Virus record (IMG/VR): IMGVR_UViG_3300046524_000301
Coordinates: 1-64,000 of that record
Strand: one strand, 5' to 3'
Length of the DNA: 64,000 nt
From: a virus
Below are positions 27,510-44,637 of this stretch, one piece after another; the first letter of the stretch is position 1; each line of letters begins with the position of its first letter. The position numbers and the translations under genes are program-made. Below the pieces are notes generated by a model. It searched no databases. It saw nothing but the letters and a program-made list of their open reading frames with translations, and was not told the origin of the DNA.

Positions 27510-27800
27510 ATGGCAGCGTCTAATGGAGTTACAAACTCCGTAACAAGTAAAGAAGAGAGCATGTTTCCGGGCTTCGGCCCGAAGAAGGTCGATGAAAACG
27601 ACTTCAATAACTATCATGTTAGATATGCTCAAATCGATATCATGGATCCAGGCTCACGAGCAGAGTTGGAAATCATCGAAACTAGAGCAATTAAAAATCA
27701 AGGTGTGGTTATCCTGACTAAAGATAAGTTCACCTTCATGGACAAATACTATATGGTAGTGAGCTACCTGGAACTAGATACAAATGCCGACACCCGCTAA
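27510..27800 (+). CDS. Hypothetical protein between portal and RNAP beta
   Basis: 96 aa; centre YHVRYAQIDIMDPGSRAELE. No known motif. Its last 17 bp overlap the start of the beta gene, so translation of the polymerase subunit is coupled to this gene. Confidence 0.7.
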   Translation: MAASNGVTNSVTSKEESMFPGFGPKKVDENDFNNYHVRYAQIDIMDPGSRAELEIIETRAIKNQGVVILTKDKFTFMDKYYMVVSYLELDTNADTR

Positions 27801-30800
27801 TAACCTTCAACTAATCTTTTCGTCACCACGGGAAATTAATACCCGTGTTGATGGTTCGCTTATGCAGGGTATTCTTTCCCAGTTTCCGATCGAAGGCAAA
27901 AACTACATTTTGACCATTTCGGATCTTAAGGCTGAACCTAAAGAATTTACCCACGCCGATGAAAAGGATGCGATTTTGAAATCCAAATCGCTATCATATC
28001 CTATCAAAGGCCATATCAAGTTGATTGAAAAGGCAACGGGTAAAGTCGTTGACGAGAATAAGAACTTTTCGTTGATGGACGCTTTTTACATTACACCGAA
28101 GCACACAATGGTGTATAAAGGCAACAACTACTCAGTTGCCAACCAACTCCAGTTGAATCCTGGGGTATACACACGTAGTAAAGAAACAGGTGAACTTGAG
28201 TCACACTTTAACACGGGCTCTGGCCGAAGCTTTTCGATCACGCTTGATCCGCAGACATTCCAGTTCTCGGTTCATCCGGCAAGCTCATCTTCGTCAATTC
28301 CCCTTGGTCCGCTCGTGTCTAAGGTTTTCGGCATTGGTCTTAAAGAAGTAAGTCAATACATTCCTGCACAGGTATGGGAAGCTAATCTTGCGGCTTCGGC
28401 AGGCAAGGAAGCTAAGATCGTCAACGATCTATACTCTAAACTCGTGTCGACGGGTAAACAGAAGCCTGCAGCATCACTTGAAGAAAAGATGATGCAATTG
28501 CGTGAATCGATGGAAGCTTCGTCACTTTCTCCGCAAACGACTTTGGTTACACTTGGTAAGTCGGTTAGCTCAGTTAACTCTGATGCCATCCTTCGTGCTA
28601 TGCAAAATCTTGTTAAAGTCCATGCTGGCGATAAGCCTGAAGATAACCGAGATTCGCTACAATTCAAGCGTGTTCAGAATCTGCCTGACTTTATTACGAC
28701 TCGTTTTAACAAACACGAAATGCTGCCTAGCATTCGTCGTAAACTTCTAGCTAATTTGGATAAGACGAAAAATCCGTCAATCCGTGATGTGGTAGTAAGC
28801 AAGCCTTACAACAAGGTGATGTCAAACTACATCATTGAAAGTAACCTGGTTTCAACTCCATCGGAAACGAACCCTATCGAATCTTTGGAAAGCGTTGGTA
28901 AAGTAACAGTTCTTGGAGCCGGTGAAGGCGGTATTGCTTCTGATCGTGGTGTGCCTATGTCTGCCCGAGATATTGATCCTTCGCATCTTGGCATTATCGA
29001 TCCGAGCCGTACACCGGAATCGGGTCACGCCGGTATCGATCAACGTTTCACTATTTCTGCTCGTCGTGACGACAGCGGTAATCTATACGCTCGTGTTATC
29101 GACAAGCAAGGTAAACAGCACTATCTGTCCGTGCAGGAAATGATGACGCATACCGTCGGATTCCCGCATCAAGAAGGCAAAAAGATTGTTCAAGCTCAGG
29201 TTCACGGCGACCTGAAAGAAGTACCGGTTGGCCAAGTTGATTACTGGCTTGGCGACACGACCGACATGTACACGATTACGACTAACCTCGTACCGTTCCT
29301 GAATAGTAACCACCCGGGTCGTCTGACGATGGCGGGTAAAGCTATCCCTCAGGCCCTGTCTCTGGTCGAGCGTGAAAAACCGCTTGTCCAGACCGTTAAT
29401 GGTGCTGGAACGAGTTTCGTCAAAGCTGTAGGCCAGGTTGTAAGTACTGTCGCTCCCGTAGCAGGCATAATTTCGACTATTAACAAGACGCAGATTCACA
29501 TCAAGGATGCCGACGGTAGAACCCACAAGGTTGACCTCGTTAAGAATCTGCCATTCAACATGAAAGGTTTCCTTGACGATGAAAAGCCTTTGGTGAAGGT
29601 TGGCGATAAAGTGGATATGAATCAGCCTATCGCCGATAACAACTACACGGTTGACGGGGAACTTGCGCTTGGTAAGAATCTTGAAGTAGCTTACATGCCG
29701 TACAAGGGCTACAACCACGAAGACGGTTTAGTTATCAGCCGTTCATGTGCTGATAGTCTGAGCAGTCACCACGCATACAAGGTCGACTATTCGGTTCAGC
29801 CGATCTCGACAATGAGTAAAACCCTGGTTGTGCGTCACTTCCCAGGTAAATTCACGAAGGATCAACTGAACAACCTCGACGATCAAGGCTTCGCTAAAGT
29901 CGGTTCTATCATCAAACACGGAGACCCAGTCTACACTGTGCTTGAAAAGCGTGAACCTACGGCTGAAGATAAAATGTTGGCTCGTTTGCATAAATCGCTA
30001 GTTAGCCCGTATCGTCTTGCTACAGAACTGTGGACCCACGAAGAGAATGGGGAAGTGGTTGATGCGCATACGGAAGGTAAGAATATTCGTATTCTCGTCC
30101 GTTCTATCAAACCGCTTGAGATTGGTGACAAATTGACCGGGCTTCATGGTAACAAAGGTATTGTTTCGAAGATCCTCGAAGATCACGAAATGCCTTACAA
30201 GAAAGACGATGGTAAGCCAGTTGACATTCTACTGAATCCGGCTTCTGTTACTTCTCGTATTAACTTGGGCCAGTTGATGGAAACTGCTGCTGGTAAGATC
30301 GCAAAAGCTAAGGGTACTCCTTACTTCGTGCATAACTTTAGCAAAGGCAGCAACGTAAGCGATCTAAAGAAGGAACTTGACAGTATTGGTATTAGCGATA
30401 CCGACATGATGGTCGACCCGAAGACAGGTAAAGACCTTGGACGTATTCTTACGGGTCCACAGTACTTCCTAAAGCTTTATAAAACGACTGACCAGAACTG
30501 GTCTGCACGTAACGTTGGTAGCTACGACAACGTGCTGCAACCGCAGAAAGGCGGCGAAGAAGGTTCGAAGTCTGTCGGCTACATGGAAATGCTTGGTCTG
30601 CTTGGCTCGAATGCCCGTAAGAACCTGAAGGAAATCGCAACGCTTAAGTCTCAGGATAACTCGGAATACTGGACTCGTTTTAAAATGGGTCACGCCCTTC
30701 CGAAGCCGAAGATGACTTTTGCTACACAGAAGTTCTTCGATTATCTGAGCGGTTCGGGGATTAAGACTAGCATCAAAGACGGTAAACTTACAGCTTCTCC

Positions 30801-31161
30801 TTTGACTGACCAGGATATTATCGGAATGTCGAACGGTAAGATCGAGTCTCCAGAATTGCTGAGTGCCAAGAATCTTGAACCTGAAAAGGGCGGTCTGTAC
30901 GATCCGGCAACTACGGGTGGACTGAGAGGCAATAAGTGGACTCATTACGAATTGGCCGAAGCTCTACCGAATCCTGTGTTTGAGCGTCCGATCAAGAGTC
31001 TGCTAGGCTTGAAGTCAAGCGAATTTGACGGAATCGTTCAAGGTACTATCGGTGTTAAAAACATGGGTGACGGATCTTTTGCTTTGCATAATACGTCTGA
31101 CGGTAAGCATATTAAAACCATTAAGGTGAATAGCGCTAATGTAGCAGATGCAGGAGATTAA
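27784..31161 (+). CDS. RNA polymerase beta subunit (RpoB-like), full length
   Basis: 1125 aa, against about 1340 in E. coli RpoB. The N-terminal part has YPIKGHIKLIE ... VANQLQLNPGVYTR, aligning with the RpoB protrusion around VIVSQLHRSPGVFF. The catalytic half has PYKGYNHEDGLVIS (about residue 640; RpoB NGYNFEDS), IGDKLTGLHGNKGIVSKI (about 780; RpoB GDKMAGRHGNKG) and PVDILLNPASVTSRINLGQ (about 812). These are universal beta motifs near the active site and nascent RNA. It belongs to the late/structural operon and, with the two beta' genes, should form a two-subunit core lacking alpha and omega. Much closer to cellular beta than split phiKZ-type subunits, as judged by motifs. Confidence 0.95.
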   Translation: MPTPANNLQLIFSSPREINTRVDGSLMQGILSQFPIEGKNYILTISDLKAEPKEFTHADEKDAILKSKSLSYPIKGHIKLIEKATGKVVDENKNFSLMDAFYITPKHTMVYKGNNYSVANQLQLNPGVYTRSKETGELESHFNTGSGRSFSITLDPQTFQFSVHPASSSSSIPLGPLVSKVFGIGLKEVSQYIPAQVWEANLAASAGKEAKIVNDLYSKLVSTGKQKPAASLEEKMMQLRESMEASSLSPQTTLVTLGKSVSSVNSDAILRAMQNLVKVHAGDKPEDNRDSLQFKRVQNLPDFITTRFNKHEMLPSIRRKLLANLDKTKNPSIRDVVVSKPYNKVMSNYIIESNLVSTPSETNPIESLESVGKVTVLGAGEGGIASDRGVPMSARDIDPSHLGIIDPSRTPESGHAGIDQRFTISARRDDSGNLYARVIDKQGKQHYLSVQEMMTHTVGFPHQEGKKIVQAQVHGDLKEVPVGQVDYWLGDTTDMYTITTNLVPFLNSNHPGRLTMAGKAIPQALSLVEREKPLVQTVNGAGTSFVKAVGQVVSTVAPVAGIISTINKTQIHIKDADGRTHKVDLVKNLPFNMKGFLDDEKPLVKVGDKVDMNQPIADNNYTVDGELALGKNLEVAYMPYKGYNHEDGLVISRSCADSLSSHHAYKVDYSVQPISTMSKTLVVRHFPGKFTKDQLNNLDDQGFAKVGSIIKHGDPVYTVLEKREPTAEDKMLARLHKSLVSPYRLATELWTHEENGEVVDAHTEGKNIRILVRSIKPLEIGDKLTGLHGNKGIVSKILEDHEMPYKKDDGKPVDILLNPASVTSRINLGQLMETAAGKIAKAKGTPYFVHNFSKGSNVSDLKKELDSIGISDTDMMVDPKTGKDLGRILTGPQYFLKLYKTTDQNWSARNVGSYDNVLQPQKGGEEGSKSVGYMEMLGLLGSNARKNLKEIATLKSQDNSEYWTRFKMGHALPKPKMTFATQKFFDYLSGSGIKTSIKDGKLTASPLTDQDIIGMSNGKIESPELLSAKNLEPEKGGLYDPATTGGLRGNKWTHYELAEALPNPVFERPIKSLLGLKSSEFDGIVQGTIGVKNMGDGSFALHNTSDGKHIKTIKVNSANVADAGD

Positions 31162-31164
31162 ACG

Positions 31165-31524
31165 ATGCAGAATCCTAATCGGTTTATCAGGGGACTATCT
31201 GATATTTCAGATATTGTAGATATTCCATGTAATGACGGGCCTGAAGTAATACATAAAACAACCGTTATTCCCTTGGTGGTGCCGTCCCCTGCACCTTCTA
31301 CGGTAACTTCGATCGCATCTTTGACTCAATTTGAACAAACTCTTACCATAGACGGCGCTCAGATTTTATCCATAGGGGAAACCCCAGGATCCAATTCTAT
31401 GTTATTTATAAATGGGTTTATTCAATCGAAAACATCGTATGATACTAGCGGAGATTCTCTAATTCTCCCTTCTTCTTTGAATTTGTTTGCGGGAGACTTG
31501 ATAATATTTCTATATTTGAAATAG
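31165..31524 (+). CDS. Fibre-tip-like small protein
   Basis: 119 aa, 3 bp after the beta stop. The C-terminal segment (MLFINGFIQSKTSY ... LFAGDLIIFLYLK) shares a pattern with the end of 31609-32706 (LFLNGMLLEPGSGNDY ... LSGDKLRAYYWK), which is typical of phage fibre tips. Probably a virion adhesion or fibre accessory protein. Confidence 0.6.
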   Translation: MQNPNRFIRGLSDISDIVDIPCNDGPEVIHKTTVIPLVVPSPAPSTVTSIASLTQFEQTLTIDGAQILSIGETPGSNSMLFINGFIQSKTSYDTSGDSLILPSSLNLFAGDLIIFLYLK

Positions 31525-31544
31525 TCTGTTGCGGATTCTAAAAT
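31516..31544 (+). promoter_or_regulatory. Fibre-cassette promoter TTGAAA-N17-TAAAAT
   Basis: TTGAAA at 31516-31521, overlapping the stop region of 31165-31524, and TAAAAT at 31539-31544, 17 bp apart. The terminator at 31558-31587 lies just downstream, so the first bases of this transcript carry the hairpin. Confidence 0.65.
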
Positions 31545-31557
31545 AATAGATGTAGCT

Positions 31558-31587
31558 AAGGCCCGGCTAATATAGGGCCTTTCTTTT
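31558..31587 (+). terminator. Rho-independent terminator after the beta unit
   Basis: AAGGCCC pairs with GGGCCTT (7 bp, 10-nt loop), followed by TCTTTT. Confidence 0.75.
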
Positions 31588-31608
31588 AAAAACAAAGGAA
31601 AGCCTTAT

Positions 31609-32706
31609 ATGGCCCAATCTCTAATTCGTGGCTCGACACAGATAATGGCCGGGACAATCCCGGCTTCAGCTTTTGTGTCGAGCCTTAATCTTCCCACTTC
31701 ACAACTTCAAGACGGAGCAACGTTTATTCGTTCGACCGGTTCAGTTGCGATGGGAGCTTCGCTCAGTATGGGCGGATTTACAATCACAAACCTCGGTACC
31801 CCTGTCAACGGAACCGATAGTGCTACAAAATCTTATGTTGATGCTCTGGCAAATGGCCTTAGCTTCAAGAATGCTGTACGTGCTTTAGCTGCTGCAAACG
31901 TTACGCTTACTGGTACTCAGACCATCGACGGCGTAGCTCTCGCTGTTAATGATCGTGTGCTTCTAACTGCGCAGACAACAGGCTCACAGAACGGTCTATG
32001 GACGGTTCAGACGGGCTCGTGGACTCGTCCTTCAGACTGGGCTGCAGCAACGACACAAAAGGAAGGAGCGTACGTTCTCGTCGATCCTGATGGCACTACG
32101 TACAAGAATAGTAAATGGTACTGTACTAACACCGGCACAATCACGGTTGATACAACTTCTACAGCCTGGGTTCAGGATACATCAGGCGCTTCATATAGTA
32201 ATGGCCAGGGTCTTTCGCTTACAGGCTCTACTTTTGCTGTGAAGCTCGGTAACGGTATGACTTTCGATGGTTCGAACAACGTTACGCTTTCTCCTGCTAC
32301 TGGGGGGTTGCTAACTGTTGCGGCTGGCGGAGTAGGTATTACCAACTCTTCTTCTGCGGCTCAGCTAATTATTTCCAACGCTTCAAACCAGGCTGCATGG
32401 GTTAGCGCAAGTGGTGACGCAACTATCTCGAATGCTGGCGTTTTCACTGTTAACAACACTGCTGGTACTGGTTTCACGAAGTACACGAATATGGTTAACA
32501 ACGAAACTCCTGGCGGAACGATTAACGGTGCGAACACTGCATTTACGCTTGTCAGCACTCCGCAGGTTTCATCTCTTGAGCTTTTCTTGAACGGTATGCT
32601 ACTTGAACCGGGATCAGGAAACGATTATACTATTAGCGGAACAGCCATAACTATGCTGTTCGCTCCGCTGAGCGGGGACAAGCTAAGAGCATATTACTGG
32701 AAATGA
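31609..32706 (+). CDS. Tail fibre-like protein
   Basis: 365 aa, Thr/Ser/Ala/Gly/Asn-rich. The N-terminal region contains GFTITNLGTPVNGTDSATKS, the repeat-like motif of phage fibres (GFxITNLGxPVxxTDAATK). A WTVQTGSWTRPSDW segment and a terminal LFLNGMLL ... YYWK domain follow. Expected role: host attachment. Confidence 0.85.
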   Translation: MAQSLIRGSTQIMAGTIPASAFVSSLNLPTSQLQDGATFIRSTGSVAMGASLSMGGFTITNLGTPVNGTDSATKSYVDALANGLSFKNAVRALAAANVTLTGTQTIDGVALAVNDRVLLTAQTTGSQNGLWTVQTGSWTRPSDWAAATTQKEGAYVLVDPDGTTYKNSKWYCTNTGTITVDTTSTAWVQDTSGASYSNGQGLSLTGSTFAVKLGNGMTFDGSNNVTLSPATGGLLTVAAGGVGITNSSSAAQLIISNASNQAAWVSASGDATISNAGVFTVNNTAGTGFTKYTNMVNNETPGGTINGANTAFTLVSTPQVSSLELFLNGMLLEPGSGNDYTISGTAITMLFAPLSGDKLRAYYWK

Positions 32707-32942
32707 CAAATAATACAAACGTAGTACCTGAACAAGACGCCTGGCTCGGAAAGATGCAAAACGAGCTGGGCGTTTTATATTCTAACGTGTGGATGTTGGA
32801 AATTCAAAAGGAGCGCCTGACTAATCGTGTTCTTCAAGATGCGGAACTTATTGCCCATCTTAAGGAAAGAATTCTAAAATTAGAGCAGGCTAATACAGAG
32901 CTAAAAGAGACTATTCAGCCTGAACGACGAAAGAGAGAATAA
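32703..32942 (+). CDS. Small coiled-coil protein
   Basis: 79 aa, overlapping the fibre stop by 4 bp (ATGA). Heptad-like leucine and charged pattern (ERILKLEQANTELKETIQ) suggests a coiled coil, perhaps a fibre chaperone or assembly factor. Confidence 0.65.
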   Translation: MTNNTNVVPEQDAWLGKMQNELGVLYSNVWMLEIQKERLTNRVLQDAELIAHLKERILKLEQANTELKETIQPERRKRE

Positions 32943-33473
32943 ATGGCACGTACACAGATTAATCTTGGAGCCCAAGGCGCTGACGGAACTGTATTAAGAG
33001 CAGATCTGAATACCACGACCGCAGGAAGCGCTGTTATTACAAAGGTGCTGGCTGGAACTGGTATTTCAATTTCAGCGTTCACTGGTGCTGATTCTGGTAC
33101 TGGCGATGTAACTCTAGCTGCAGGCCTTCCGGGTACGCCCTTTGATATAATTCTCTTCATTCAAGGCGGTTTTGCAAATGCCGAAACACTTACTTCTATA
33201 AATACTAGAAGAACATTCTCGTTACCGGCAAACCTTACTGGGAGTGTAGTAGACGCTAAAACTGCTGCTACTGCATCGACAACTATTACGTTCACAAAGA
33301 ACGGCACATCTATCGGAACTGCCGTATTTGCAGCAAGCGGTACTGCAGCTACTCTTACCTTTTCATCAACTGTAAGTTTTGCAATCGGTGATATCTTCGA
33401 AATCGTGGGACCAGCTACGGCAGATACTACGCTTGCAAACGTACGATTTAACCTAGTAGGAACAAGAACGTAA
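32943..33473 (+). CDS. Fibre-like virion protein
   Basis: 176 aa. Low-complexity Thr/Ala/Gly start (GADGTVLRADLNTTTAGSAV) and a beta-rich C-terminal domain with FSSTVSFAIGDIFEIVGP, like phage fibre and baseplate decoration domains. Ends by overlapping the next start (TAATG). Confidence 0.65.
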   Translation: MARTQINLGAQGADGTVLRADLNTTTAGSAVITKVLAGTGISISAFTGADSGTGDVTLAAGLPGTPFDIILFIQGGFANAETLTSINTRRTFSLPANLTGSVVDAKTAATASTTITFTKNGTSIGTAVFAASGTAATLTFSSTVSFAIGDIFEIVGPATADTTLANVRFNLVGTRT

Positions 33474-34105
33474 TGGGTACACTTACTGGATCTATTGCAG
33501 TACTTACTGGCACTGAAACTTTCAGTCTGGTGAGTCCTGTACAAACTGACTGGATTGAATTTGCACAAACTCTTACTTACAATAGAAAGAGCGGAGGAGG
33601 TTCCACTATAAGTTCCCCGACATTGCTAGGCACTGGCGGAACTATTAGCGGGTTCGGATTTGGTTTGGGATATACCTGGACCGGAGGCACTCCAGTAGCT
33701 TCTGGAACAGCTGTTAGGGAAGGGATCGGAGTAGATCACACTACGGCAATAGTCGGTCAGGGCCTTAGATTCACTATGCCTGCGGATATGACTTCTCGTA
33801 CTGCTGTAATCTATTGGGGAACGTATAGTGGTGCGGGTCGATTAACTGCTACTTTGCTAGATGGCAGCGCACAGCCTTTTATTCAAAATGAACCTGCTAC
33901 CAGTCCAGGCGGGCAGTCTACATACTATTCTTCAACTCTTACTTATAACGCAAACTCGCCCAATCAAAAATTGCAGATAGATTTAACGCTTACGCAGATA
34001 GGCCTTGACAATGATGGAAACGTGTGGATAGGGGCAGTTAAATACCTAAACGGTACAGCATCTAAAATTCCACGAGTAAGACGAATTTTGACTATCAGCT
34101 CTTAA
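33473..34105 (+). CDS. Fibre or adhesin-like virion protein
   Basis: 210 aa, Ser/Thr/Gly-rich, beta-type sequence with WIEFAQTLTYNRKSGGG and a conserved-looking RFTMPADMTSRTAVIYWGTY. Carbohydrate-binding-like composition, but no family assigned. Last gene of the fibre cassette. Confidence 0.6.
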   Translation: MGTLTGSIAVLTGTETFSLVSPVQTDWIEFAQTLTYNRKSGGGSTISSPTLLGTGGTISGFGFGLGYTWTGGTPVASGTAVREGIGVDHTTAIVGQGLRFTMPADMTSRTAVIYWGTYSGAGRLTATLLDGSAQPFIQNEPATSPGGQSTYYSSTLTYNANSPNQKLQIDLTLTQIGLDNDGNVWIGAVKYLNGTASKIPRVRRILTISS

Positions 34106-35397: not shown

Positions 35398-36171
35398 TTA
35401 ATTTTGGCCGAATGCTCTGTGAAGTTCCTTGTACAGGTTGTAAGCCTGCGTCACAGTCAGAACTTCCGATCGTTCTCCGAATTCGAAGAACATGTAAGCT
35501 TTCGGCTCAAAGTCCTGTCCGTCTTTGGCGACCACTTTCTTAGCAAGTTCACGCGCCGTCTTTCCAAAATGCGGGCTGTCAGGATCCAGCGCTGCCATGC
35601 CCTGAATGAACTCAAACTTTCCAAATTTCCTCTGAGCCTTCGGCGTGACTTTAAGGTTCGCATCTTGAGGTTGAACAGGCTGCGCCTCGGTCGATACGGT
35701 AACTTCCTTCTCGGGCTCGGCACCATCGACTTTCTCCAACGGAAGAGCTTGCTGGGTTTCGACGAGGGCCAAAGCAGGTTTTACTCTCGTCATGCGACGG
35801 ATTGCCTTCTGGGCTTTCACGTCATTAGGTGCGATCTTTCGAGCGACCTTGTGCGTCAGCTTTCGAGGTTTGTACTCGACGTCTTCGTTGATGAAATACA
35901 GCTTGTGACCTCCGCCCCCAGCGCTGATCTCTGCACGGATAAATCCATTGTCTTTCAGATGAAGCAAAGCGTTGTCAATCGCCTGTTCTTTGATGTCGGA
36001 CTTATCATGAACAAGCCCGGTGCAAAGATCCGAACGGGACAAACCACCGCCGTACTTCTGAAGCAACTGATACACGGCGTGAGAGTTCGTTACGTATTCA
36101 AGCGATTCCACATTGACCACCTTCGGCTTGCGAGCCTTCATAACTTGTTGCTTGGCAATAGAGGTTGACAT
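35398..36171 (-). CDS. Putative winged-helix DNA-binding protein
   Basis: 257 aa. Residues about 25-90 look like a winged helix (YVTNSHAVYQLLQKYGG, LSRSDLC, AIDNALLHLKDNGFIR, KLYFINED). A basic linker and a second globular part follow. Role unknown; possibly a transcription factor. Ribosome site AAGGACC; promoter motif at 36238-36246. Codons somewhat GC-rich. Confidence 0.6.
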   Translation of the reverse strand: MSTSIAKQQVMKARKPKVVNVESLEYVTNSHAVYQLLQKYGGGLSRSDLCTGLVHDKSDIKEQAIDNALLHLKDNGFIRAEISAGGGGHKLYFINEDVEYKPRKLTHKVARKIAPNDVKAQKAIRRMTRVKPALALVETQQALPLEKVDGAEPEKEVTVSTEAQPVQPQDANLKVTPKAQRKFGKFEFIQGMAALDPDSPHFGKTARELAKKVVAKDGQDFEPKAYMFFEFGERSEVLTVTQAYNLYKELHRAFGQN

Positions 36172-36237
36172 TATTGGTCCTTCGAAAAAGGTATAGTTAG
36201 AATAGCGTAAGGAATAAATCTATTTCCTTACAATTTT

Positions 36238-36246
36238 CTTATACCA
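36238..36246 (-). promoter_or_regulatory. Extended -10 promoter TGGTATAAG
   Basis: Minus-strand TTTGGTATAAG between the ligase stop and the 35398-36171 start (67 bp). Confidence 0.65.
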
Positions 36247-36256
36247 AATTTAAAGG

Positions 36257-37618: not shown

Positions 37619-37836
37619 CAGTGATCTCTTTGTTTGATAGCTGCAACAGCAGCCTCAAATTTAGCCCTGTGTTGTTTTTCTTCTGGTAACGCAAACTTCA
37701 ACGCTGCGACGAGTTTCGGATTTCTGGCTTTCTTCAATTCTTCGGAGTACTTCTTCACATCATCGTTTTCGTCTTTTTCATTCTTCTCTGCCGTAGCTAG
37801 GTCAGAAGCAATTTTGGTTAGGTATTTATTAGTCAT
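37618..37836 (-). CDS. 72-aa protein with tag MTNKYLTKIA
   Basis: Begins with the recurring tag (MTNKYLTKIAS) and continues as a highly charged helix (NEKDENDDVKKYSEELKK). Overlaps the helicase by 8 bp and the ligase start by 1 bp, so it is tightly coupled to both. Function unknown; perhaps an adaptor or cargo-linked peptide. Confidence 0.75.
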   Translation of the reverse strand: MTNKYLTKIASDLATAEKNEKDENDDVKKYSEELKKARNPKLVAALKFALPEEKQHRAKFEAAVAAIKQRDH

Positions 37837-39286
37837 CTTTCTTCATCAAATCTTTAACTTCGTCAAACAGGTCCTGCTTCGTATCAGAATTCTCTGACAG
37901 ATACTTGTCGATACTGTACGGCGTCTTACCCCAAAGCGGCTTAGGATGTACGCTGTGAAAATGCTCAACTTCTACTTTGCGTTCTTCTTTGGGTAAATGG
38001 TCATGGCTTCCGAAACGAACTGCACGGCCAACTACTTGATTGATTTTGCTCTTGTTAAAGTGAGGCTCAAGAATTTGTACACGCTTGGTGCCTTTACTGT
38101 CAAGTCCTTCTGAACCAGACGAAGAGATCAACAGAATCTTCTTCTTACCGGAATTGTACTGCTTAACTAATTCATCCTTCTCTTTTCGTGACAACGAACC
38201 ATCATAAATAGCATGATCGATCTTTAATTCTTGCAGTCGTTTTGAATAATCCTTCAGACCTGCATCGAGATAGTTTGAATACACGAGAGCCTTGAAGTTC
38301 TTATCCGTCTTCAGACCGTCCTGGAGGCTCGCTACGGCCTTCTGGATCTTAGGTGAGTACTCACCCTTGCCATCAGCCTTGAGGTGCTTGTAGCCGTTGG
38401 AAACCTGTCTCACGCCTGTCGAGAAGGCATTGAGACTCGACTTTTCTTTCTTGTCCAACGGAAGGTTGTGACGAATCTTCATTCTGAGCAGGAACGGAAT
38501 TTTACCTTCAGTAAACTTGTAATACTTCAACTGTTCCGGGGACATTTCTACATCCACGTTCTTTTCAGTCTTGGAAGGGAAATGATCTTTAGCTTCAGGA
38601 TCATCCTTGCTATCGTAATAGCTCACATACCGCTGAAGCGCTTCTTTAAGTTCCTTACGACGGTCAAGTGTTTTAACAGCTTCAGGTTTAGCACCAAGAA
38701 GCCGTTCTTTAAACCCAGGCTTGACAATTTCGTCCTTAGTGTAACGCTCTTCCATCTTCTTAGAATCTTCAGGAAGAACATTGTCATTAGCAGCGATGTT
38801 AACGAGCGCTGAAATATCAGACAGCTTATTGTAGTTACCCGTAGCGGTAGCTAGAAGACGTCGATCCGCTCCGCTGATAATGTCACGAAGCTCTTTGGTA
38901 CGTTTAGTATTCGTATTGCGAAGTCTGTGAGCCTCGTCGGCAACTACGATCGAGTAATCGTTCTTGCGAAGATTATGAGCTTCGTTTACTGCCTTCTCGT
39001 AGCTCATGACGTCAAGCCTATTCTTGTCAAGGTTGATCTTGTGCTTGAGCAATTCCTTGTCAACGTTAGTAACAAGGCTCGCCGGGGCAATAACCAACGC
39101 TCGTTTCTTCGGATTTTCGTTCTGGTAATGTTCCACAGCTTTAAGGAACGTTTTTGTCTTGCCACTACCAAGGCTATGATGAAGGACAACGCCTTTCTCT
39201 TTTTCAAGATGTTCAAGTGCGTCAATCTGGTTTGGCCGAAGGTCGCTTTTCTGTTTCCGGGCTATTTTTTCTAGATACTTATTCAT
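37829..39286 (-). CDS. SF2 helicase (SNF2/DEAH type), tagged MNKYLEKIA
   Basis: 485 aa. Tag at residues 1-9. Then RPNQIDALEHLEKEKG (Q-motif-like), Walker A HSLGSGKT, DEAH box VVADEAHRLRN, LLATATGN (motif III) and motif VI QVVGRAVRFGSH. Expected role: ATP-driven DNA remodelling or unwinding. First gene of a three-gene unit in which every product carries the tag. Confidence 0.88.
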   Translation of the reverse strand: MNKYLEKIARKQKSDLRPNQIDALEHLEKEKGVVLHHSLGSGKTKTFLKAVEHYQNENPKKRALVIAPASLVTNVDKELLKHKINLDKNRLDVMSYEKAVNEAHNLRKNDYSIVVADEAHRLRNTNTKRTKELRDIISGADRRLLATATGNYNKLSDISALVNIAANDNVLPEDSKKMEERYTKDEIVKPGFKERLLGAKPEAVKTLDRRKELKEALQRYVSYYDSKDDPEAKDHFPSKTEKNVDVEMSPEQLKYYKFTEGKIPFLLRMKIRHNLPLDKKEKSSLNAFSTGVRQVSNGYKHLKADGKGEYSPKIQKAVASLQDGLKTDKNFKALVYSNYLDAGLKDYSKRLQELKIDHAIYDGSLSRKEKDELVKQYNSGKKKILLISSSGSEGLDSKGTKRVQILEPHFNKSKINQVVGRAVRFGSHDHLPKEERKVEVEHFHSVHPKPLWGKTPYSIDKYLSENSDTKQDLFDEVKDLMKKDD

Positions 39287-39303
39287 TTGCCTATATGCTA
39301 AAT

Positions 39304-39312
39304 TGGTATAAG
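39304..39312 (+). promoter_or_regulatory. Extended -10 promoter TGGTATAAG on the plus strand
   Basis: AAATTGGTATAAG, the only plus-strand copy of the decamer found in the window. It precedes a 27-codon open frame with a good ribosome site. Confidence 0.65.
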
Positions 39313-39337
39313 TAATGTACTAAACCTGGAGGTTATC

Positions 39338-39421
39338 ATGTCACTACTTCAAATTCTATTACATCATCCTATAGATGTAATAATAACGATTGCTATATTG
39401 GTATTAATATGCTGGAATTAA
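39338..39421 (+). CDS. 27-aa hydrophobic peptide (toxin-like or membrane regulator)
   Basis: ATG preceded by CTGGAGG 7 nt upstream and by the promoter at 39304-39312. The peptide MSLLQILLHHPIDVIITIAI continues LVLICWN: one hydrophobic span with a central HHP. Size and hydrophobicity recall TisB/ShoB-type type I toxins, but no homology is claimed. It lies between two minus-strand genes and its stop overlaps the end of 39418-40686. Confidence 0.6.
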   Translation: MSLLQILLHHPIDVIITIAILVLICWN

Positions 39422-40686
39422 TCCTTGAGAACATCGGTTAACGCCGACGATGTTCTTTTTAGATGAGCTGAAAGAGGGTTAACCCCTAGTTTGTAAGCTC
39501 TATTTTTTAACTGTGAAATACGACCTTCAGATTCCACTCCAGCTTTAATCGGTTTCTTGATAAATTGATTATTCAACATATCAACCACTTTCTTACCGTA
39601 CTTGTTATTAGCCACCTTTTTACTAGCCATAAGATTCTTGGCTGTATTTAAACTACCCGCAGCGGGGTCGATAGCAAAGCTTGCAACTGCGCCCGTCAAA
39701 CCTGGTTTTGCAGTAAGATGTCCCGGTACAAAATGCTTACCCTCTGGCTTTGCACCTTTCGTAATATTGGTTGCAATATTGGAAAGCAACGGATGGGTTT
39801 TGTCTTTCCATAACTTAGCCACATCATCGGCTTTACTCATAACATGGTCAAGTGAAGGTAGACCGAGATGTTTGCTGACATGGTTATGAACTGCTTGTAC
39901 CACAGGGTCTCTATGCAAATCGTATTTTTTTAGATCGTTGAACCGACCTTGCGTAAGCATTCTAACAGCTACTCGTTGACGAGGAGTTGCATGGGCAGTA
40001 AGTCCACCTACGGCACGACCTAGATCATGCATTGACTTATGAGCCACGGAGATATCTGGCAGAGTTGCGCCAAGTGCGGTACGCAGCGCTCTAGCCTTGA
40101 TGCTATTATCTACGACACCGCGAGCGCCCTGGGCAAACGAATTGGCCAGATAGCGTGACACACGACGTTTTCCCAAAGCCACATTTGTAGCTACATTTTG
40201 AAGTAAGTGAGTAGCGATTGCACCGCCGATAAACGATGCTTGCTTGTCCATACCTTCTTCTATTTTCTTAAGGTAAGGGTTCTGACTTTTACCCATTCCC
40301 GTAATGTTCCTGAAAATCCATGATTTTTCATTTTCTTTAGTCGGAGATTTCTTAAGCAGGAACTTCTGACCATCTTTGGTGAATATAACCAGCGAGGTTT
40401 CTGTACTGTGTGGAGCTACCATTGCTTTTCTAACCCAATCTAAATGAGTAACGCCAGCGCCATACTGACCAGTAGGGATAACCACTTTCTTGCTTAGCGC
40501 ATATGCTCTGTCATGAACAGGCTGTTCGTAGACTGCAATGATTTCACCTGGACCAGGCATGTCTTTGAGCGTTGCGAAGGAGTACGCCTTATCTCCATGA
40601 ACTAGTCGGAGATCGTAGTGCAGGCCCATTACATCAGCTTCGTGACGTTGCCGGGTGAAAAGGAATTCATCATTGGGTTGTAACAT
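39418..40686 (-). CDS. LigD-type 3'-phosphoesterase domain protein with internal tag
   Basis: 422 aa. Residues 1-130 match the LigD phosphoesterase (PE) domain: RH (15), LHYDLRL (His23), VHDRAY (His58), IPTGQYGAG (70-78), KFLLKKSP. PE domains trim 3' ends before end joining. A tag-like NPYLKKIE lies at residues 136-143, then a helical C-terminal part of about 270 residues of unknown type. Not fused to a ligase, unlike bacterial LigD; the ligase is encoded three genes away. Confidence 0.82.
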   Translation of the reverse strand: MLQPNDEFLFTRQRHEADVMGLHYDLRLVHGDKAYSFATLKDMPGPGEIIAVYEQPVHDRAYALSKKVVIPTGQYGAGVTHLDWVRKAMVAPHSTETSLVIFTKDGQKFLLKKSPTKENEKSWIFRNITGMGKSQNPYLKKIEEGMDKQASFIGGAIATHLLQNVATNVALGKRRVSRYLANSFAQGARGVVDNSIKARALRTALGATLPDISVAHKSMHDLGRAVGGLTAHATPRQRVAVRMLTQGRFNDLKKYDLHRDPVVQAVHNHVSKHLGLPSLDHVMSKADDVAKLWKDKTHPLLSNIATNITKGAKPEGKHFVPGHLTAKPGLTGAVASFAIDPAAGSLNTAKNLMASKKVANNKYGKKVVDMLNNQFIKKPIKAGVESEGRISQLKNRAYKLGVNPLSAHLKRTSSALTDVLKD

Positions 40687-40708
40687 TCTAAAGTGCCTTT
40701 GAAAAGCT

Positions 40709-40744
40709 AAAAAAAGCCTAGACGCATTATACCACGTCTAGACT
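40709..40744 (-). terminator. Terminator whose loop contains a promoter -10
   Basis: On the minus strand AGTCTAGACG pairs with CGTCTAGGCT (10 bp, one G-U), followed by TTTTTTTAGCT; the 10-nt loop is TGGTATAATG. It ends the 40755-41939 transcript. Confidence 0.85.
40726..40734 (-). promoter_or_regulatory. Extended -10 TGGTATAAT inside a terminator loop
   Basis: Perfect TGGTATAAT in the loop of the hairpin; would start transcription of the phosphoesterase gene (39418-40686) within the right arm. Confidence 0.6.
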
Positions 40745-40754
40745 ATTTTAAAAC

Positions 40755-41939
40755 TTAAGCTACAAAGCTCTGACGATACGAAGTCAGTTTTTCACGAATC
40801 GTTTCATCCGAAGAACTCAGAACAAAGAAAGCAAAATCTTCCTTCTGGGAAATGTGTTTCTCAAATGCCTTCTTAACGATACCTACTGCTTCCGGTTCCG
40901 TAACTCCGGTAACTTCGGTAATGAGATCGTCGTTGTACTTGGCACGAATCATTTTGAGTTCTTTGAAGTTTGTAGAATCGGAGATCATGGACTTATGCGT
41001 ATTCGGATTCCGTTCCTGCCAAAGCTTCATTTGATACTTACGGATGGTTTCAGGCAGAGTTTCGGGAGTATGTCTATGGTCAGCGTATTTCGTCTGGATA
41101 ATTTCGACGAGTTCCTTAAACAGCTTAGATCCATAATAATCAGCAGGGCCAATATAGTTATTGTCCTCGTCAATATCAAACGAAGACTTACTGATATATT
41201 TCGAACCCATGAACCATTGGGCTATCTCCATCCTCGATCTGAAGTATCCATAGCTTCCGTAGTTCTTAGTTGAAGCGCCAAGAAGCTTAGTGATAGTTTC
41301 CATATTGGTAGTGTTTACGATGTAACGCTTATATTCCTCGTCTTCATCTTTAAGGACGAATTGGGTACGCCCCATGTAGTCCACATCAAAACCAAACTTT
41401 CTAAGAAAATGCTGAACCACTTTAAGGAATTCGCCTTCAAACCCGTTGAGCATTGAAATGATATAGTTTTCTGGATAGCATCCCACTTCACGGAATTCAG
41501 GACCAAAATTGTGAATTACAACTTTCACCCCTTTGAACATAAATTCAATTCTGTTGTTGTCATGACTCATTCTAGCCGTAAGCGTATCAAGCTTAAAATG
41601 ATCGATAATCAAACTCATGAATTCTATGGTTTGTTGTTTTCCATAGCTATAATAAGAAACTTCAAGGGAAAATGTAATAGTTTCTACGTAGCTGACACCA
41701 GACGGATTATCTGTAAATCTATACAAAGGTCTGAGGTAAAATGAAAATCCAGATTCCTTAAAAGTCTTATTGATCTCCGAATGCATATCATTGCAAAGTT
41801 TTTCATAGTCCGCTTGAAATTTAGGAACGGGGACCCAGTGATTAACATTTGCAGCTAGAGGATTTACAGGAGCCGGAAGAACGGCTTTAGCAATTTCAGG
41901 CGCATCTTTATGCGTTGGTGCAGGTTTTCTAAAAGCCAT
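40755..41939 (-). CDS. Hypothetical protein
   Basis: 394 aa from the ATG giving MAFRKPAPTH; a TTG four codons upstream is possible. Pro-rich N-terminus, then a mixed globular sequence with aromatic-rich stretches (FYLRPLYRFTD, YGSYGYFRSRMEIAQWF). No family recognised. Single-gene unit between promoter 42014-42022 and the terminator at 40709-40744. Confidence 0.7.
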   Translation of the reverse strand: MAFRKPAPTHKDAPEIAKAVLPAPVNPLAANVNHWVPVPKFQADYEKLCNDMHSEINKTFKESGFSFYLRPLYRFTDNPSGVSYVETITFSLEVSYYSYGKQQTIEFMSLIIDHFKLDTLTARMSHDNNRIEFMFKGVKVVIHNFGPEFREVGCYPENYIISMLNGFEGEFLKVVQHFLRKFGFDVDYMGRTQFVLKDEDEEYKRYIVNTTNMETITKLLGASTKNYGSYGYFRSRMEIAQWFMGSKYISKSSFDIDEDNNYIGPADYYGSKLFKELVEIIQTKYADHRHTPETLPETIRKYQMKLWQERNPNTHKSMISDSTNFKELKMIRAKYNDDLITEVTGVTEPEAVGIVKKAFEKHISQKEDFAFFVLSSSDETIREKLTSYRQSFVA

Positions 41940-42013
41940 ACTATAATCCAATTACAGAAATGAAATTCCATTAACCTAAAAAAGTAAAAGAAAGGTAAAT
42001 GGGCTTTACATAC

Positions 42014-42022
42014 GTTATACCA
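42014..42022 (-). promoter_or_regulatory. Extended -10 promoter TGGTATAAC
   Basis: Minus-strand GTTGGTATAAC, 75 bp before 41939 and just after the terminator at 42042-42077. Confidence 0.6.
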
Positions 42023-42041
42023 ACAGATCCTCGATTTACTT

Positions 42042-42077
42042 AAAAAAACGGGCTGGAGATTATTAGTCTCACAGCCC
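42042..42077 (-). terminator. Rho-independent terminator after 42083-42424
   Basis: On the minus strand GGGCTG(T)GAGA pairs with TCTCCAGCCC (10 bp, one bulge), then GTTTTTTT. Confidence 0.85.
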
Positions 42078-42082
42078 TTTCC

Positions 42083-42424
42083 TCAGATACGAGTGTTTCT
42101 CAAATACTGAAACTGTGCAGACGGAAGGCTTTTATGCTTTACCTTCTCCTTGTAGTCTTTGAGAAGCCCGAGATCAGCCGGGTGAAAGCCCTTCATGGTC
42201 GAAAGCACCGGCGTGGTTTTCAGGTCACGCAAAAACGTTTCGTGAACCACGACGATCTGCGACGTGCCTGCACGGACACGTTCCTGGTTGTGGTAGCAGG
42301 AAGTAAGACGTCGTTCGACTTCGTTCTTCAACTTGATCTGATCCGTGCTGTAAACACAGCCGTCATCGATCCAGCCAAAGCCCGGTTGATACTCTTCAAT
42401 CTGAGTCCGATATACTGCATACAT
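42083..42424 (-). CDS. Hypothetical protein, distant paralogue of 42450-42716
   Basis: 113 aa. N-terminal pattern YRTQIEEYQPGFGWIDDGCV resembles WRIEMTEVEHGWGPRPDGYL of the upstream gene, suggesting duplication. No function known. GC-rich codons. Confidence 0.7.
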   Translation of the reverse strand: MYAVYRTQIEEYQPGFGWIDDGCVYSTDQIKLKNEVERRLTSCYHNQERVRAGTSQIVVVHETFLRDLKTTPVLSTMKGFHPADLGLLKDYKEKVKHKSLPSAQFQYLRNTRI

Positions 42425-42449
42425 AGCTCACCCCTATGTGTTACTGCGA

Positions 42450-42716
42450 TTAACCGACGATTGTCAAATCACCCTTTTTCTTGCCGACCGCCGTACTGAT
42501 ACACACGGTTTCCATCAGATCCAAGTGAAGCTCTGCCGAGATGGGGATGAACTCCGCACGGCCAGCGAGAATGGTTACTCCCTTCCATTTAGTTTCGGTA
42601 AGCTGCTTTGCTCTTGCTTCAACAGCTTCCTTGGTTAAAGAGTACAAATAACCATCCGGTCTCGGACCCCAGCCATGCTCAACTTCGGTCATTTCAATAC
42701 GCCATGCACCGTTCAT
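42450..42716 (-). CDS. Hypothetical protein, distant paralogue of 42083-42424
   Basis: 88 aa. Shares the x-I/E-E...GW...DG-Y/V-YS layout with its neighbour. First gene of a minus unit from the promoter at 42759-42767; divergent from beta'-C. Confidence 0.7.
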   Translation of the reverse strand: MNGAWRIEMTEVEHGWGPRPDGYLYSLTKEAVEARAKQLTETKWKGVTILAGRAEFIPISAELHLDLMETVCISTAVGKKKGDLTIVG

Positions 42717-42767: not shown

Positions 42768-42777
42768 TTAAAGTCGC

Positions 42778-42783
42778 TAAAAT
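42778..42783 (+). promoter_or_regulatory. TAAAATA-class promoter of beta'-C
   Basis: GCTAAAATAGG with no convincing -35 (TGTACT at 42755-42760). Transcription from here would start near 42790, inside the hairpin at 42785-42804. Confidence 0.45.
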
Positions 42784-42784
42784 A

Positions 42785-42804: not shown

Positions 42805-42810
42805 GAAAAC

Positions 42811-44637
42811 ATGACTGAACAATATACAACGCCTGGAGCTATCAAGCTCAAATCCGAACTTCCAACTCAGGAAGCGCGGGACAATTTTGATCTGTATCGC
42901 CCTTTAGATAAAAAAGGTATTTCGGATCTGGTCAACGTCCTGCTTAAACATGGCGGTCCTAATTCTCACGAATCCATAAATGATCTCGGTAAAAAGTTCT
43001 TCAACAAGGCTACTGAGATTGGCGCAACCACGCCCTTAACTGACTACATCAACGAATCTGACGAACGCCAAGCAATCATCGATGAATTCCAGACAAAGGT
43101 TAATCAGATTTTCTCTAGGAAGCTGGCTAAAAAAGAAGAAAACGAAGCTCTTGGTAACCTAACTGGAGAGTACAATGGGAAGATTGAAAAACAAAATATA
43201 GATCACCTTATGTCACGAGGCTCTACCGCAGCAAAGATGGCTAAGACGGGTGCTCGTGGTAATCCTACTCAGCTTGCAACTGGTACTTCAACGCCTCTTA
43301 TGTCGATTAACTTGAAGGGCGAACTAGTACCGTTCGTTATTAAGCATTCTTTTGCCCAAGGTATGACTCCAGCTGAACTGATAGCGATGTCGTACATGGG
43401 ACGTGGATCTACGGTTCTGTCTCAACTATCAACGGCTCTACCGGGCGCTCTATTTAAAGAGCTGTCCCCAACTGTATTCCACGAAGTTATCACTATTGAT
43501 GATTGCGGAACCACCAATGGCATTCTTCTTCCGATATCTGACAAAAAAGGTGCTATCGGTAGATACGAAGCGGGCACTAACACGCTTATCGACGAAGCTT
43601 ACTACAAAGAAAAGGTTGCCTCTGGAGCCAAGAGCATAAAGGTTCGTAGTGTCCTTACCTGCGAAGCTCATCAAGGCGTTTGCAAGAAATGCTACGGTCT
43701 TATGGGGAATGGAAAACCTGCTGAAATTGGCGAAAACGTCGGCGTTATCGCAGCACAATCTGTGTCAGAAGTTCTTACGCAGTCTATGCTTGCAACTAAG
43801 CACAAAGCATCGGTAGGCGCTCGTAAAGGCAATTCGTATGAACAGGCTTCTAATCTTCTACGCAATCCGGCTGAAAACTTCAAGGACGAAGCTACTATTT
43901 CGGGTATTAACGGAACTGTCTCTTTAATCAAGCAAACTCCTCTTGGTGACCATCAGGTATTTGTTAATGAACAGTCCCATTTCGTTCCGCGCATCCAAAA
44001 CCTAAAAGTTTCAGTAGGTGATAAGGTTCTGAAAGGCGATTCGCTTTCTACTGGCGTTGTTAATCCCCGTAAACTCGTAGGTCTTAAAGGCCTTGGGGCA
44101 GGAAGACTTTATATGAGTCATGAACTTCGTGGTATTTACGGTTCAGATCTAGATCCTCGTCACTTCGAAATGATCGCAAAGAATCTGGTCAAGCACGTTG
44201 AAGTCGTAGATCCAGGTGAAACTGGCTTCCTACCCGGTCAAAAGATTGATGTAAACACGGTTCGTAAATACTTCTCTGATACACATGGTGACGTGCCTCT
44301 CGAAAACGCAGAAGGTAAGCTTCTGGCCAAAGGCGTGCATGAGCTTACAGCAGGTACGCTGCTTGACGGTAACCACATCCAGGAATTGCGTGAACGTGGT
44401 GTCACAAAGGTTCCAGTAGCATCGACCGGACTGAAAGTAATCCCTATCGTTCCTGGTCTTAAGACGGCTAAGTTGCTTGATGATAACTGGGTTTCGAAAC
44501 TGTCGTTCTCTGGTCTTAAGAATACGCTTCGTGAAAGCGCTGCAGTTGGTGCAGAATCAGATCTTCATAGCACTGAGCCTATTACCCCGTACATTATCGG
44601 TAATGAATTTGGCGAAGGTGAAGGAGGACAGTACTAA
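42811..44637 (+). CDS. RNA polymerase beta' subunit, C-terminal half (split RpoC)
   Basis: 608 aa, starting in register with RpoC about 580 (YRPLDKKGISDLV). Then SRGSTAAKMAKTGARGN (F-loop), the bridge-helix region MSYMGRGSTVLSQLS, zinc cysteine C232 (DDCGTTNG) and C284-x6-C291-x2-C294 with the same spacing as E. coli C888/C895/C898, and VGVIAAQSVSEVLTQSML, the trigger-loop base. Ends with LRESAAVGAESDL ... TPYIIG, as RpoC does. With 34125-35288 it restores beta' except its first 165 residues. Overlaps the next gene by 1 bp. Confidence 0.95.
   Translation: MTEQYTTPGAIKLKSELPTQEARDNFDLYRPLDKKGISDLVNVLLKHGGPNSHESINDLGKKFFNKATEIGATTPLTDYINESDERQAIIDEFQTKVNQIFSRKLAKKEENEALGNLTGEYNGKIEKQNIDHLMSRGSTAAKMAKTGARGNPTQLATGTSTPLMSINLKGELVPFVIKHSFAQGMTPAELIAMSYMGRGSTVLSQLSTALPGALFKELSPTVFHEVITIDDCGTTNGILLPISDKKGAIGRYEAGTNTLIDEAYYKEKVASGAKSIKVRSVLTCEAHQGVCKKCYGLMGNGKPAEIGENVGVIAAQSVSEVLTQSMLATKHKASVGARKGNSYEQASNLLRNPAENFKDEATISGINGTVSLIKQTPLGDHQVFVNEQSHFVPRIQNLKVSVGDKVLKGDSLSTGVVNPRKLVGLKGLGAGRLYMSHELRGIYGSDLDPRHFEMIAKNLVKHVEVVDPGETGFLPGQKIDVNTVRKYFSDTHGDVPLENAEGKLLAKGVHELTAGTLLDGNHIQELRERGVTKVPVASTGLKVIPIVPGLKTAKLLDDNWVSKLSFSGLKNTLRESAAVGAESDLHSTEPITPYIIGNEFGEGEGGQY

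Follow-up and report, generated by a model that had tools for sequence, protein, structure and literature searches.

The Locus and Its Genes

The window analysed here, 64,000 nucleotides of the IMG/VR virus record IMGVR_UViG_3300046524_000301, encodes a three-chain RNA polymerase (RNAP) core in ORFs at 27784-31161 (chain 1, 1125 aa), 34125-35288 (chain 2, 387 aa), and 42811-44637 (chain 3, 608 aa), all on the plus strand. An initial annotation had placed the three genes at exactly these positions in the translated ORFs, and the motifs it named are present in the translations (KGYNHEDG, GDKLTGLHGNKG, AGDFDGD, NVGVIAAQS, and C-x6-C-x2-C). PHROGs agree with Pfam on all three chains. Chain 1 (Pfam RNA_pol_Rpb2_6, E 6e-61) spans beta, which is not split in the window, at approximately residues 1-995, followed by a beta' N-terminal segment at approximately residues 998-1110. 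The beta flap tip region aligns, with its residues partly conserved. By hhalign profile-profile comparison, the last ~125 residues (30775..31161, plus strand, borders approximate) correspond to the bacterial beta' N-terminus, from which the zinc ribbon has been deleted (Prob 96.9-97.6, P 1.4e-10 to 4.2e-12), and no match was obtained in 12 control tiles or 20 column shuffles. This match rules out a split at the rpoB/rpoC border. The earlier description of "beta plus split beta'" was therefore too simple, as chain 1 holds the beta' start.

Chain 2 corresponds to approximately residues 165-550 of E. coli beta', including DFDGD (Pfam Rpb1_2, E 3e-20; Rpb1_1, E 9e-10; PDB alignments). Chain 3 continues without a seam from about residue 566 onward and contains the trigger loop and the zinc site (Pfam Rpb1_5, E 3e-15; PDB alignments; motifs). 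The C-x6-C-x2-C spacing claimed for this site is formed by C284/C291/C294 of chain 3, with C232 as the fourth Cys; we take these to be the positions of E. coli C814/C888/C895/C898. The zinc site is kept, and the beta' coiled coil region aligns with partly conserved residues. In the motif alignment, the trigger-loop Arg is replaced, so catalysis could differ. The chains have the features of a multisubunit (two-barrel) RNAP, namely the catalytic domains of both beta and beta' and their three Asp, and this triad is kept in 56/56 phage rows of the alignment. No loss of the catalytic motif was found in relatives, the Asp residues being kept in the DYDGD of Salmonella phage Arash and Vibrio phage D69. 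As had been proposed, alpha and omega are lacking, with none above the cut-off in 22 records: PF01000 (alpha) matched in 0/22 and PF01192 (omega) in 0/22, with one match below the cut-off. A 96-aa ORF considered as omega-like had no family match. A single Rpb2_6 match per record was found in 19/19 relatives and in the window's record, the completeness of the records being uncertain; an Rpb2 pattern scan gave no match. The best explanation of these sequences is that chains 1, 2, and 3 would together form one catalytically competent RNAP core without alpha or omega.

The portal protein gene (25599..27500, plus strand; 46% identical to Arash gp204 over 545 aa) starts the gene run that holds chain 1. 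A small ORF with no assigned function overlaps the chain 1 start (27510..27800, plus strand); similar ORFs occur in L018, L026, L029, and L040, and in Arash and D69 by position only. Downstream of chain 3 lie a homologue of gp218, identified as a virion protein by Arash proteomics (45497..47452), a head maturation protease candidate (50352..51857; PHROG 18299, E 2e-6; 45% identical to Arash gp222), and the major capsid protein (55956..56849; 55% identical to Arash gp226), all on the plus strand. The order portal, RNAP, protease, capsid is common to the window, Arash, and D69, and these flanking genes rule out host contamination. Contrary to the initial annotation, the RNAP genes do not form one operon: chain 3 is separated from chain 2 by minus-strand ORFs (35398-42716), and chain 2 from chain 1 by other plus-strand ORFs (31165-34105). 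The latter insert (31165..34105) contains weakly DUF4183-like, head-decoration-like, tail-fibre-like, and unmatched ORFs. Among the minus-strand genes is an SNF2-type helicase (37829..39286), homologous to the Arash virion protein gp217. The "myovirus" label derives from Arash rather than from the window, through the electron microscopy mentioned in a portion of the Arash report (PMC10585845).

Two types of sigma gene are associated with this lineage. The window encodes a sigma70-family factor with regions 2 and 4, a homologue of Arash gp196 (8884..9771, plus strand). A Gp10-like sigma occurs in 21/24 records, Arash included, and is absent only from records of 72, 131, and 134 kb; no Gp10 gene was found in the window's record, which is a fragment. 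The three-ORF arrangement of the window, in which a gap of ~3 kb separates chain 1 from chain 2, recurs in further contigs whose chain 1 is 87-100% identical to that of the window. This gap measures 2937-3115 nt in L008, L009, L010, and L012 and 2963 nt in the window; L007 and L028 have the layout and a ~3 kb gap by ORF coordinates. The repetition of the layout in further contigs rules out a one-off assembly accident.

Relationship to Known RNA Polymerases

The closest named records are Arash and the Vibrio phages D69, D148, and D181. Arash belongs to the same lineage, with 54/53/51% identity over chains 1/2/3, and has homologues of the sigma and the SNF2 helicase. In Arash and D69 the RNAP likewise lies between portal and protease/capsid genes with orthologous flanks, and all four phages share the split before chain 3. 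However, Arash (1525 aa) and D69 (1527 aa) carry chains 1 and 2 as a single polypeptide, whereas in the window they are split, with the 3 kb insert between them. Compared with Arash, the window also has its helicase gene on the opposite strand, in the interval from chain 2 to chain 3.

The polymerase had been described as more bacteria-like than those of phiKZ and AR9, and the comparisons agree: the top PDB matches shown are bacterial, cyanobacterial, and plastid, and the first match of the chain 1 model is bacterial beta. In the tree, the window's lineage forms its own clade (97/93), outside the jumbo-phage clade of AR9, PA7, and eight IMG/VR rows (100/99). Placement inside phiKZ/AR9 is thus ruled out, and by its sequences the lineage is distinct from that clade. 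The further claim of a separate acquisition is not supported. An independent capture of bacterial rpoBC by the window's lineage, apart from other phage RNAPs, appears doubtful, although profile scores are much nearer bacteria than AR9/phiKZ and the AU test keeps a grouping of the lineage with bacteria to the exclusion of other phages (p 0.19). The phage polymerases join against bacteria both in the tree without phiKZ/AR9 rows (97/99) and in the tree with them (99/97), a grouping that is unsafe given the long branches involved, and the best 80 of 595 candidates, at 29-33% identity, favor no single bacterial phylum. Bacteria fall on one side of a branch in the tree with phiKZ/AR9 rows (99/97) and in another tree (56), but not in the tree without phiKZ/AR9.

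Several other phage systems are comparable. As described in part of the mReC account (Weinheimer and Aylward, 2020; PMC7481178), those cellular-like beta and beta' of tailed phages, many from IMG/VR, form a clade apart from cellular enzymes, and 8/8 capsids matched PF07068. That part of it mentions neither fusion nor splitting of mReC genes, nor sigma factors. The beta and beta' of the window's lineage are likewise cellular-like and separate from the cellular rows as a clade. PF07068 had no match in G000 (control 2/14, none over the cut-off) and matched in 0/26 relatives, where the control was also silent; the terminase family PF03237 (TerL) matched in 17/26 relatives, 11 over the cut-off, and had no match in the window's fragment. 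The phiKZ/AR9 vRNAP and nvRNAP, as covered in passages of PMC7598289, PMC13282480, and PMC7824862, also have no alpha or omega, a beta' broken after the catalytic barrel domain, an accompanying Swi2/Snf2-type helicase, and a virion form. They differ in forming a separate clade and in comprising two RNAPs, against one per record in the window's relatives (19/19); the window's beta is unsplit and carries the beta' start. The same passages describe phiKZ/AR9 phages as having no sigma homologues and phiKZ GP68 as structurally sigma-like; AR9 gp148 is nevertheless annotated "sigma factor". A common helicase origin was dropped, as BLAST (E up to 1) matched neither the window helicase nor that of Arash to the helicases adjacent to beta'C in PA7 and AR9.

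Cobetia phage Carin-5 and Yersinia phage YerA41 also encode phage beta and beta' but belong to another clade, in which beta' is encoded before beta and there is no beta-beta' fusion. In Carin-5 an annotated sigma gene lies beside beta', so the window's lineage is not alone in combining a phage RNAP with sigma. The Helicobacter rpoBC fusion (L200) resembles the phage fusion in joining beta and beta' in one ORF; it differs as a bacterial enzyme without fission. The P23-45 RNAP, by the description in part of PMC10770324, is virion-borne and homologous to cellular RNAPs but is fused to the tape measure protein.

Promoter-Like Motifs

A repeated motif, TTGGTATAAG, has 88/89 of its sites on the strand opposite the RNAP genes (one lies at 36238..36247, minus strand) and is common to two- and three-chain relatives. 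These sites are probably promoters of non-structural genes. Late-promoter-like TAAAATA sites precede the portal/chain 1 genes (25566..25572) and chain 3 (42778..42784) on the plus strand, the latter being one of 10 strict-motif sites. For CTAAAATA, one form of the late-like motif, there was no clear excess, with 6 found against 3.3 expected and as many in 14/100 shuffles. TTGGTATAAG resembles the extended -10 of host sigma70 and could thus be read by host RNAP; TGGTATAA likewise resembles an extended -10. The base after TGGTATAA is G in 56/65 and 18/23 sites and T in only 3 and 1, a pattern unlike that of sigma70.

Proposed Virion Packaging and Timing

The suggestion that the RNAP is late-expressed or packaged gains support from this promoter pattern and from the virion proteomics of Arash, in which others have shown the RNAP to be present in virion preparations (PMC10585845). 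The fused chain Gp206 was the most-detected protein (128 unique peptides/3516 spectra), and the chain 3 counterpart Gp216 (40/1210), the SNF2 helicase Gp217 (38/1148), and the sigma Gp10 (24/467) were also found, along with portal (32 unique peptides) and capsid (30) (PMC10585845). The authors noted that abundant enzymes may carry over into virion preparations; primase, the gp197 helicase, and DNA ligase gave 932, 517, and 495 spectra, with 2 unique peptides each (PMC10585845).

The RNAP might instead be made during infection for middle and late genes, its presence in virions reflecting such carry-over and early genes being read by host RNAP from an extended -10. We consider this unlikely. High spectrum counts for several non-structural proteins are in its favor, as is the possibility that the phage sigma factors act on host RNAP, and the likeness of TGGTATAA to an extended -10 fits as well; yet in unique peptides the RNAP chains, the helicase, and the sigma are on a level with portal and capsid, far from the primase, ligase, and gp197 helicase, and the prevalence of G over T after TGGTATAA is unlike sigma70.

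For injection, the use of sigma by the core, timing, and the promoter that each reads, we infer the following scheme of a packaged polymerase. Synthesized late off the strand of the structural genes, the core would enter the virion together with a Gp10-type phage sigma and the SNF2 helicase and then be injected. The injected core would read TTGGTATAAG promoters of the opposite-strand genes, and the second sigma (8884-9771 in the window) may later retarget either this core or the host polymerase.

Proposed Fusion and Fission of the Polymerase Chains

By architecture, the tree rows comprise 19 with one chain, 18 with two, and 19 with three, the window included, and the distribution on the tree takes three changes, the minimum. 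Two-chain forms fall both beside and outside the three-chain clade, whose support is 97 on all genes and 60 on beta' alone. Before the main tree was built, L053, L059, L090, L091, L100, and L103 were removed from the 62 phage rows, along with 17 of the 31 bacterial rows; loci that were short or nearly duplicated never entered. In a reduced tree of 53 of the main tree's 70 rows, the base of the phage clade is poorly resolved (supports 20-31).

The origin of split phage RNAPs is disputed. A portion of PMC7824862 argues for pre-cellular relics, and Sokolova and colleagues mentioned intron-driven splitting or cyanobacterial descent (PMC7598289). Group I introns interrupt beta at profile column 514, and inteins occur at DFDGD and other sites, in both cases away from the break points, so visible introns or inteins are not supported as the source of the splits. 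Identity of the beta' break with the cyanobacterial rpoC1/rpoC2 border is not supported either, the phage break seeming somewhat upstream in PDB alignments.

The breaks fall inside beta', and by its sequence the enzyme is descended from a beta-beta' fusion. Since the final break falls within beta', and the beta chain carries the beta' start, the order is difficult to account for other than by fusion followed by fission. The ancestor of the phage lineage would have been a beta-beta' fusion polypeptide; the first break would have come after the beta' catalytic barrel domain and a later one, on the window's branch, near the beta' start, with other genes then entering the gap. We consider it very improbable here that the enzyme began in several pieces and that the relatives with fused chains arose by later fusion, as part of PMC7824862 argues for jumbo-phage RNAPs. 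The deep branches of the phage clade are poorly resolved, but chain 1 joins beta to the beta' N-terminus, which places its break within a subunit that bacterial rows carry as one chain, and two-chain forms are found beside as well as outside the three-chain clade.

Homology, motifs, sigma genes, the promoter-like motif with its strand bias, and the series of fused and split forms are all read from the sequences themselves. Taken with the Arash data, we think it probable that this is a late-made, virion-packaged, sigma-dependent RNAP whose core arose by fusion and then fission. We are evenly divided on the fuller proposal that a whole sigma-dependent holoenzyme (alpha-less core, its own sigma, and SNF2 helicase) is packaged and uses TTGGTATAAG promoters in a poxvirus-like early programme, with stepwise beta-beta' fission preserved in the lineage.

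Salmonella phage Arash, for which a host strain has been published, would allow tests of a core that lacks alpha but comes with genuine sigma genes and a candidate promoter. In literature on fusion, fission, and sigma-bearing phage RNAPs outside subscription journals and preprints, we found no report of a one-, two-, and three-chain series. The lineage shows all three states of the same enzyme and so bears on the dispute between a pre-cellular relic origin of split phage RNAPs and one from broken cellular enzymes. If the proposed history is true, split phage RNAPs can arise by breakage and need not predate the last common ancestor.

Polymerase genes and conserved sites

The initial annotation had placed RNA polymerase (RNAP) ORFs at 27784-31161 (chain 1, beta-type), 34125-35288, and 42811-44637 (chains 2 and 3, parts of beta'); all three are present at exactly those positions, the motifs it listed were found in the translated chains, and Pfam and PHROGs assigned each ORF to an RNAP segment with strong E-values. 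The source record is a virus fragment of 72,568 bases with one Rpb2_6 match. When the ORFs of related loci were searched with a profile for each chain, the enzyme was found in three states: a single ORF of ~2000 aa containing everything (one-chain), beta-beta'N with a separate beta'C (two-chain), and three ORFs (three-chain). The three catalytic Asp residues are conserved in 56/56 phage and 14/14 bacterial rows. The trigger-loop His is also conserved, with the adjacent Arg position altered in two- and three-chain forms. The zinc-site Cys triplet is retained in 19/19 one-chain, 18/18 two-chain, and 16/17 three-chain rows; the fourth Cys, also aligned in the window, is present in every row.

Among the best 60 listed, the top sequence and structure matches were bacterial, cyanobacterial, and plastid chains. 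The predicted structure of chain 1 (mean pLDDT 79.9, weaker in the tail) best matched a cyanobacterial beta subunit (E 3.5e-67, TM 0.67/0.72, rmsd 11.2). Alpha (PF01000) was found in 0/22 records and omega (PF01192) in 0/22 above cut-off, with one match below it; controls were positive in 13 and 14 of 14, respectively. According to a 2026 review, homologues of alpha, sigma, and omega are missing from jumbo-phage RNAPs (PMC13282480).

Phylogenetic placement

Phage clades with cellular-like beta/beta' (mReC; PMC7481178) and split jumbo-phage RNAPs (PMC7598289) are already documented in print. The phylogenetic comparison with phiKZ/AR9 proposed in the initial annotation was run, and the window lineage (97/93; chain 3, 16 rows) and the phiKZ/AR9-type rows (100/99) formed separate clades. 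The lineage was also one clade with chain 2 (100/100, 16 rows) and in a 62-row tree (98), and viral Rpb1 rows picked by an archaeo-eukaryotic motif (putative NCLDV) were distant from it. Phage rows united against bacteria in the chain 2 tree without phiKZ/AR9 rows (97/99) and in the chain 3 tree (99/97), a grouping to be read with long branches in mind and with bacteria not forming one group in the chain 2 tree; a topology joining the lineage to bacteria without the other phages was not rejected (AU p 0.19). No bacterial phylum was preferred in the best 80 of at least 595 candidate stretches (29-33% identity).

One record named Acinetobacter phage MD-2021a (CAKLQH020000005.1, locus L006) consists of bacterial chromosome over the stretch examined, which holds tufA, the ribosomal genes rplKAJL, and rpoBC; it was entered as a bacterial row. 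Helicobacter rpoBC (L200) is one ORF and useful as an outgroup example.

Relatives, sigma factors, and virion proteins

The closest relatives in the phage collection were Salmonella phage Arash (54.3, 52.6, and 51.4% identity to chains 1, 2, and 3) and Vibrio phages D69, D181, and D148 (about 52, 47, and 49%). Chains 1 and 2, separate in the window, are a single ORF in Arash (gp206) and D69. BLAST counterparts between the window and Arash comprise portal, RNAP chains, and gp218-, gp219-, protease-, and capsid-like genes. Between portal and chain 1 lies a small ORF (27510-27800) without a family match, which has sequence matches in four related loci (L018, L026, L029, L040) and matches in Arash and D69 by position only. 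Among two- and three-chain phages it recurs at this position, in part with sequence similarity.

A sigma70-family gene (8884-9771) shares 39% identity with Arash gp196. A second Arash sigma, Gp10 (region 3 above cut-off, region 2 weak), has relatives in 21/24 records, a count that takes in Arash and one-chain forms; no relative was found in the window record (72 kb) or in two others, 131 and 134 kb long. Carin-5 and AR9 also have annotated sigma genes, and the pairing of sigma with a phage RNAP is therefore not unique to the window lineage. An SNF2 helicase (37829-39286, minus strand) shares 39% identity with Arash gp217; in several Arash-like phages the ORFs of gp217 and chain 3 overlap at the end of the latter. 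By BLAST, the window and Arash helicases did not match those adjoining beta'C in PA7 and AR9. A LigD 3'-phosphoesterase-like domain below cut-off (39418-40686, minus strand) lies near a DNA-ligase-like gene (36257-37618).

Virion data for Arash have been published, and that report gives unique peptides/spectra of 128/3516 for Gp206, the highest of all, 40/1210 for Gp216, 38/1148 for Gp217, 36/1149 for Gp218, 24/467 for the sigma Gp10, 32/877 for portal, and 30/1333 for capsid (PMC10585845). Its authors caution that abundant enzymes may remain in virion preparations (PMC10585845). Packaged and carried-over enzymes are inseparable by spectrum counts alone; unique peptides separate them better, because primase (932 spectra), the gp197 helicase (517), and DNA ligase (495) have only 2 each (PMC10585845). 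The sigma gp196 is absent from the proteome table (PMC10585845).

Promoter-like motifs

The window contains 17 copies of TGGTATAA against 1.5 expected, a number reached in 0/100 shuffles; 16/17 lie on the minus strand, and 14 of these 16 have the ATG start of an ORF of 70 aa or more 40-146 nt downstream. Over 20 stretches (the window record and relatives, some mutually close), 1 copy was on the plus and 88 on the minus strand. The following base, where host sigma70 would favour T, is G at 56/65 three-chain and 18/23 two-chain sites; about 20 bases upstream is a weaker block resembling TTnAAT. One-chain loci had no excess (1-2 per 21 kb).

A second motif, [CT]TAAAATA[CG], occurs 10 times on the plus strand and once on the minus (resampling gave a plus-strand mean of 1.6 and a maximum of 5 in 60), including at 25566, before portal and chain 1, and 42778, before chain 3. 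It is weaker than TGGTATAA because it was defined after the sites were seen, few copies occur in relatives, and the excess of one form, CTAAAATA, is not clear.

Architecture and origin of the split polymerase

The tree on which the states were mapped was built by quick search under LG+G4 with SH-aLRT supports and with warnings for long rows and composition. It comprised 14 bacterial and 56 phage rows, the latter divided into 19 one-chain, 18 two-chain, and 19 three-chain (window included). Three changes, the minimum possible, suffice on these 70 rows. Three-chain forms group as a single clade (97), with 11 two-chain rows as sister (84); the other 7 two-chain rows fall outside both (100). A repeat with beta' alone under a mixture model (53 rows, the longest and some others omitted) still gave three changes, with three-chain support lowered to 60 and no resolution at the base of the phage clade. 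Joined, chains 2 and 3 align to one-chain proteins with no residues missing.

Chains 1 and 2 overlap or lie <40 nt apart in L018, L027, L040, L042, L045, and L071; other loci have gaps of 0.2-0.3 kb (L014, L016, L020, L023, L024, L044), 1.3 kb (L022), or 1.9 kb (L026), and the window and four close contigs 2.9-3.1 kb. At 31165-34105 in the window, head-decoration- and fibre-like genes separate the two polymerase genes, with an equal-sized gap in the close contigs.

Intein-like inserts at the RNAP DFDGD site of L082, L104, L109, and L076 match LAGLIDADG and/or intein-splicing domains, the latter under the Pfam cut-off, and L109 has two further LAGLIDADG-bearing inserts elsewhere. Group I introns break beta at a common site, profile column 514, in L004 (4533-4813, adjoined by an HNH/NUMOD endonuclease gene) and L073 (2993-3274); L004 has an additional group I intron at 736-943.

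According to PMC7824862, split phage RNAPs are not products of cellular subunit splitting. Literature searches found no published report of an RNAP fusion-fission series, of a beta' segment on a beta chain, or of the promoter motif.

Among the matches listed, bacterial beta matches to chain 1 stop at profile position 1027/1137 at the latest. The tail of chain 1, aligned over phage rows, matches the bacterial beta' N-terminus (Prob 96.9, P 1.4e-10) over about residues 32-155 of Acinetobacter beta', with the gap in the match falling at the zinc ribbon. Among 13 tiles across bacterial beta and beta', it matched only the beta' N-terminal tile (P 4.2e-12); the other 12 gave no match (lowest P 0.012, for the tile at the end of beta), nor did 20 column shuffles (lowest P 0.05). 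The break in the window RNAP therefore lies within beta' instead of at the border between the cellular genes, and in an ancestor beta and beta' were joined in one chain.
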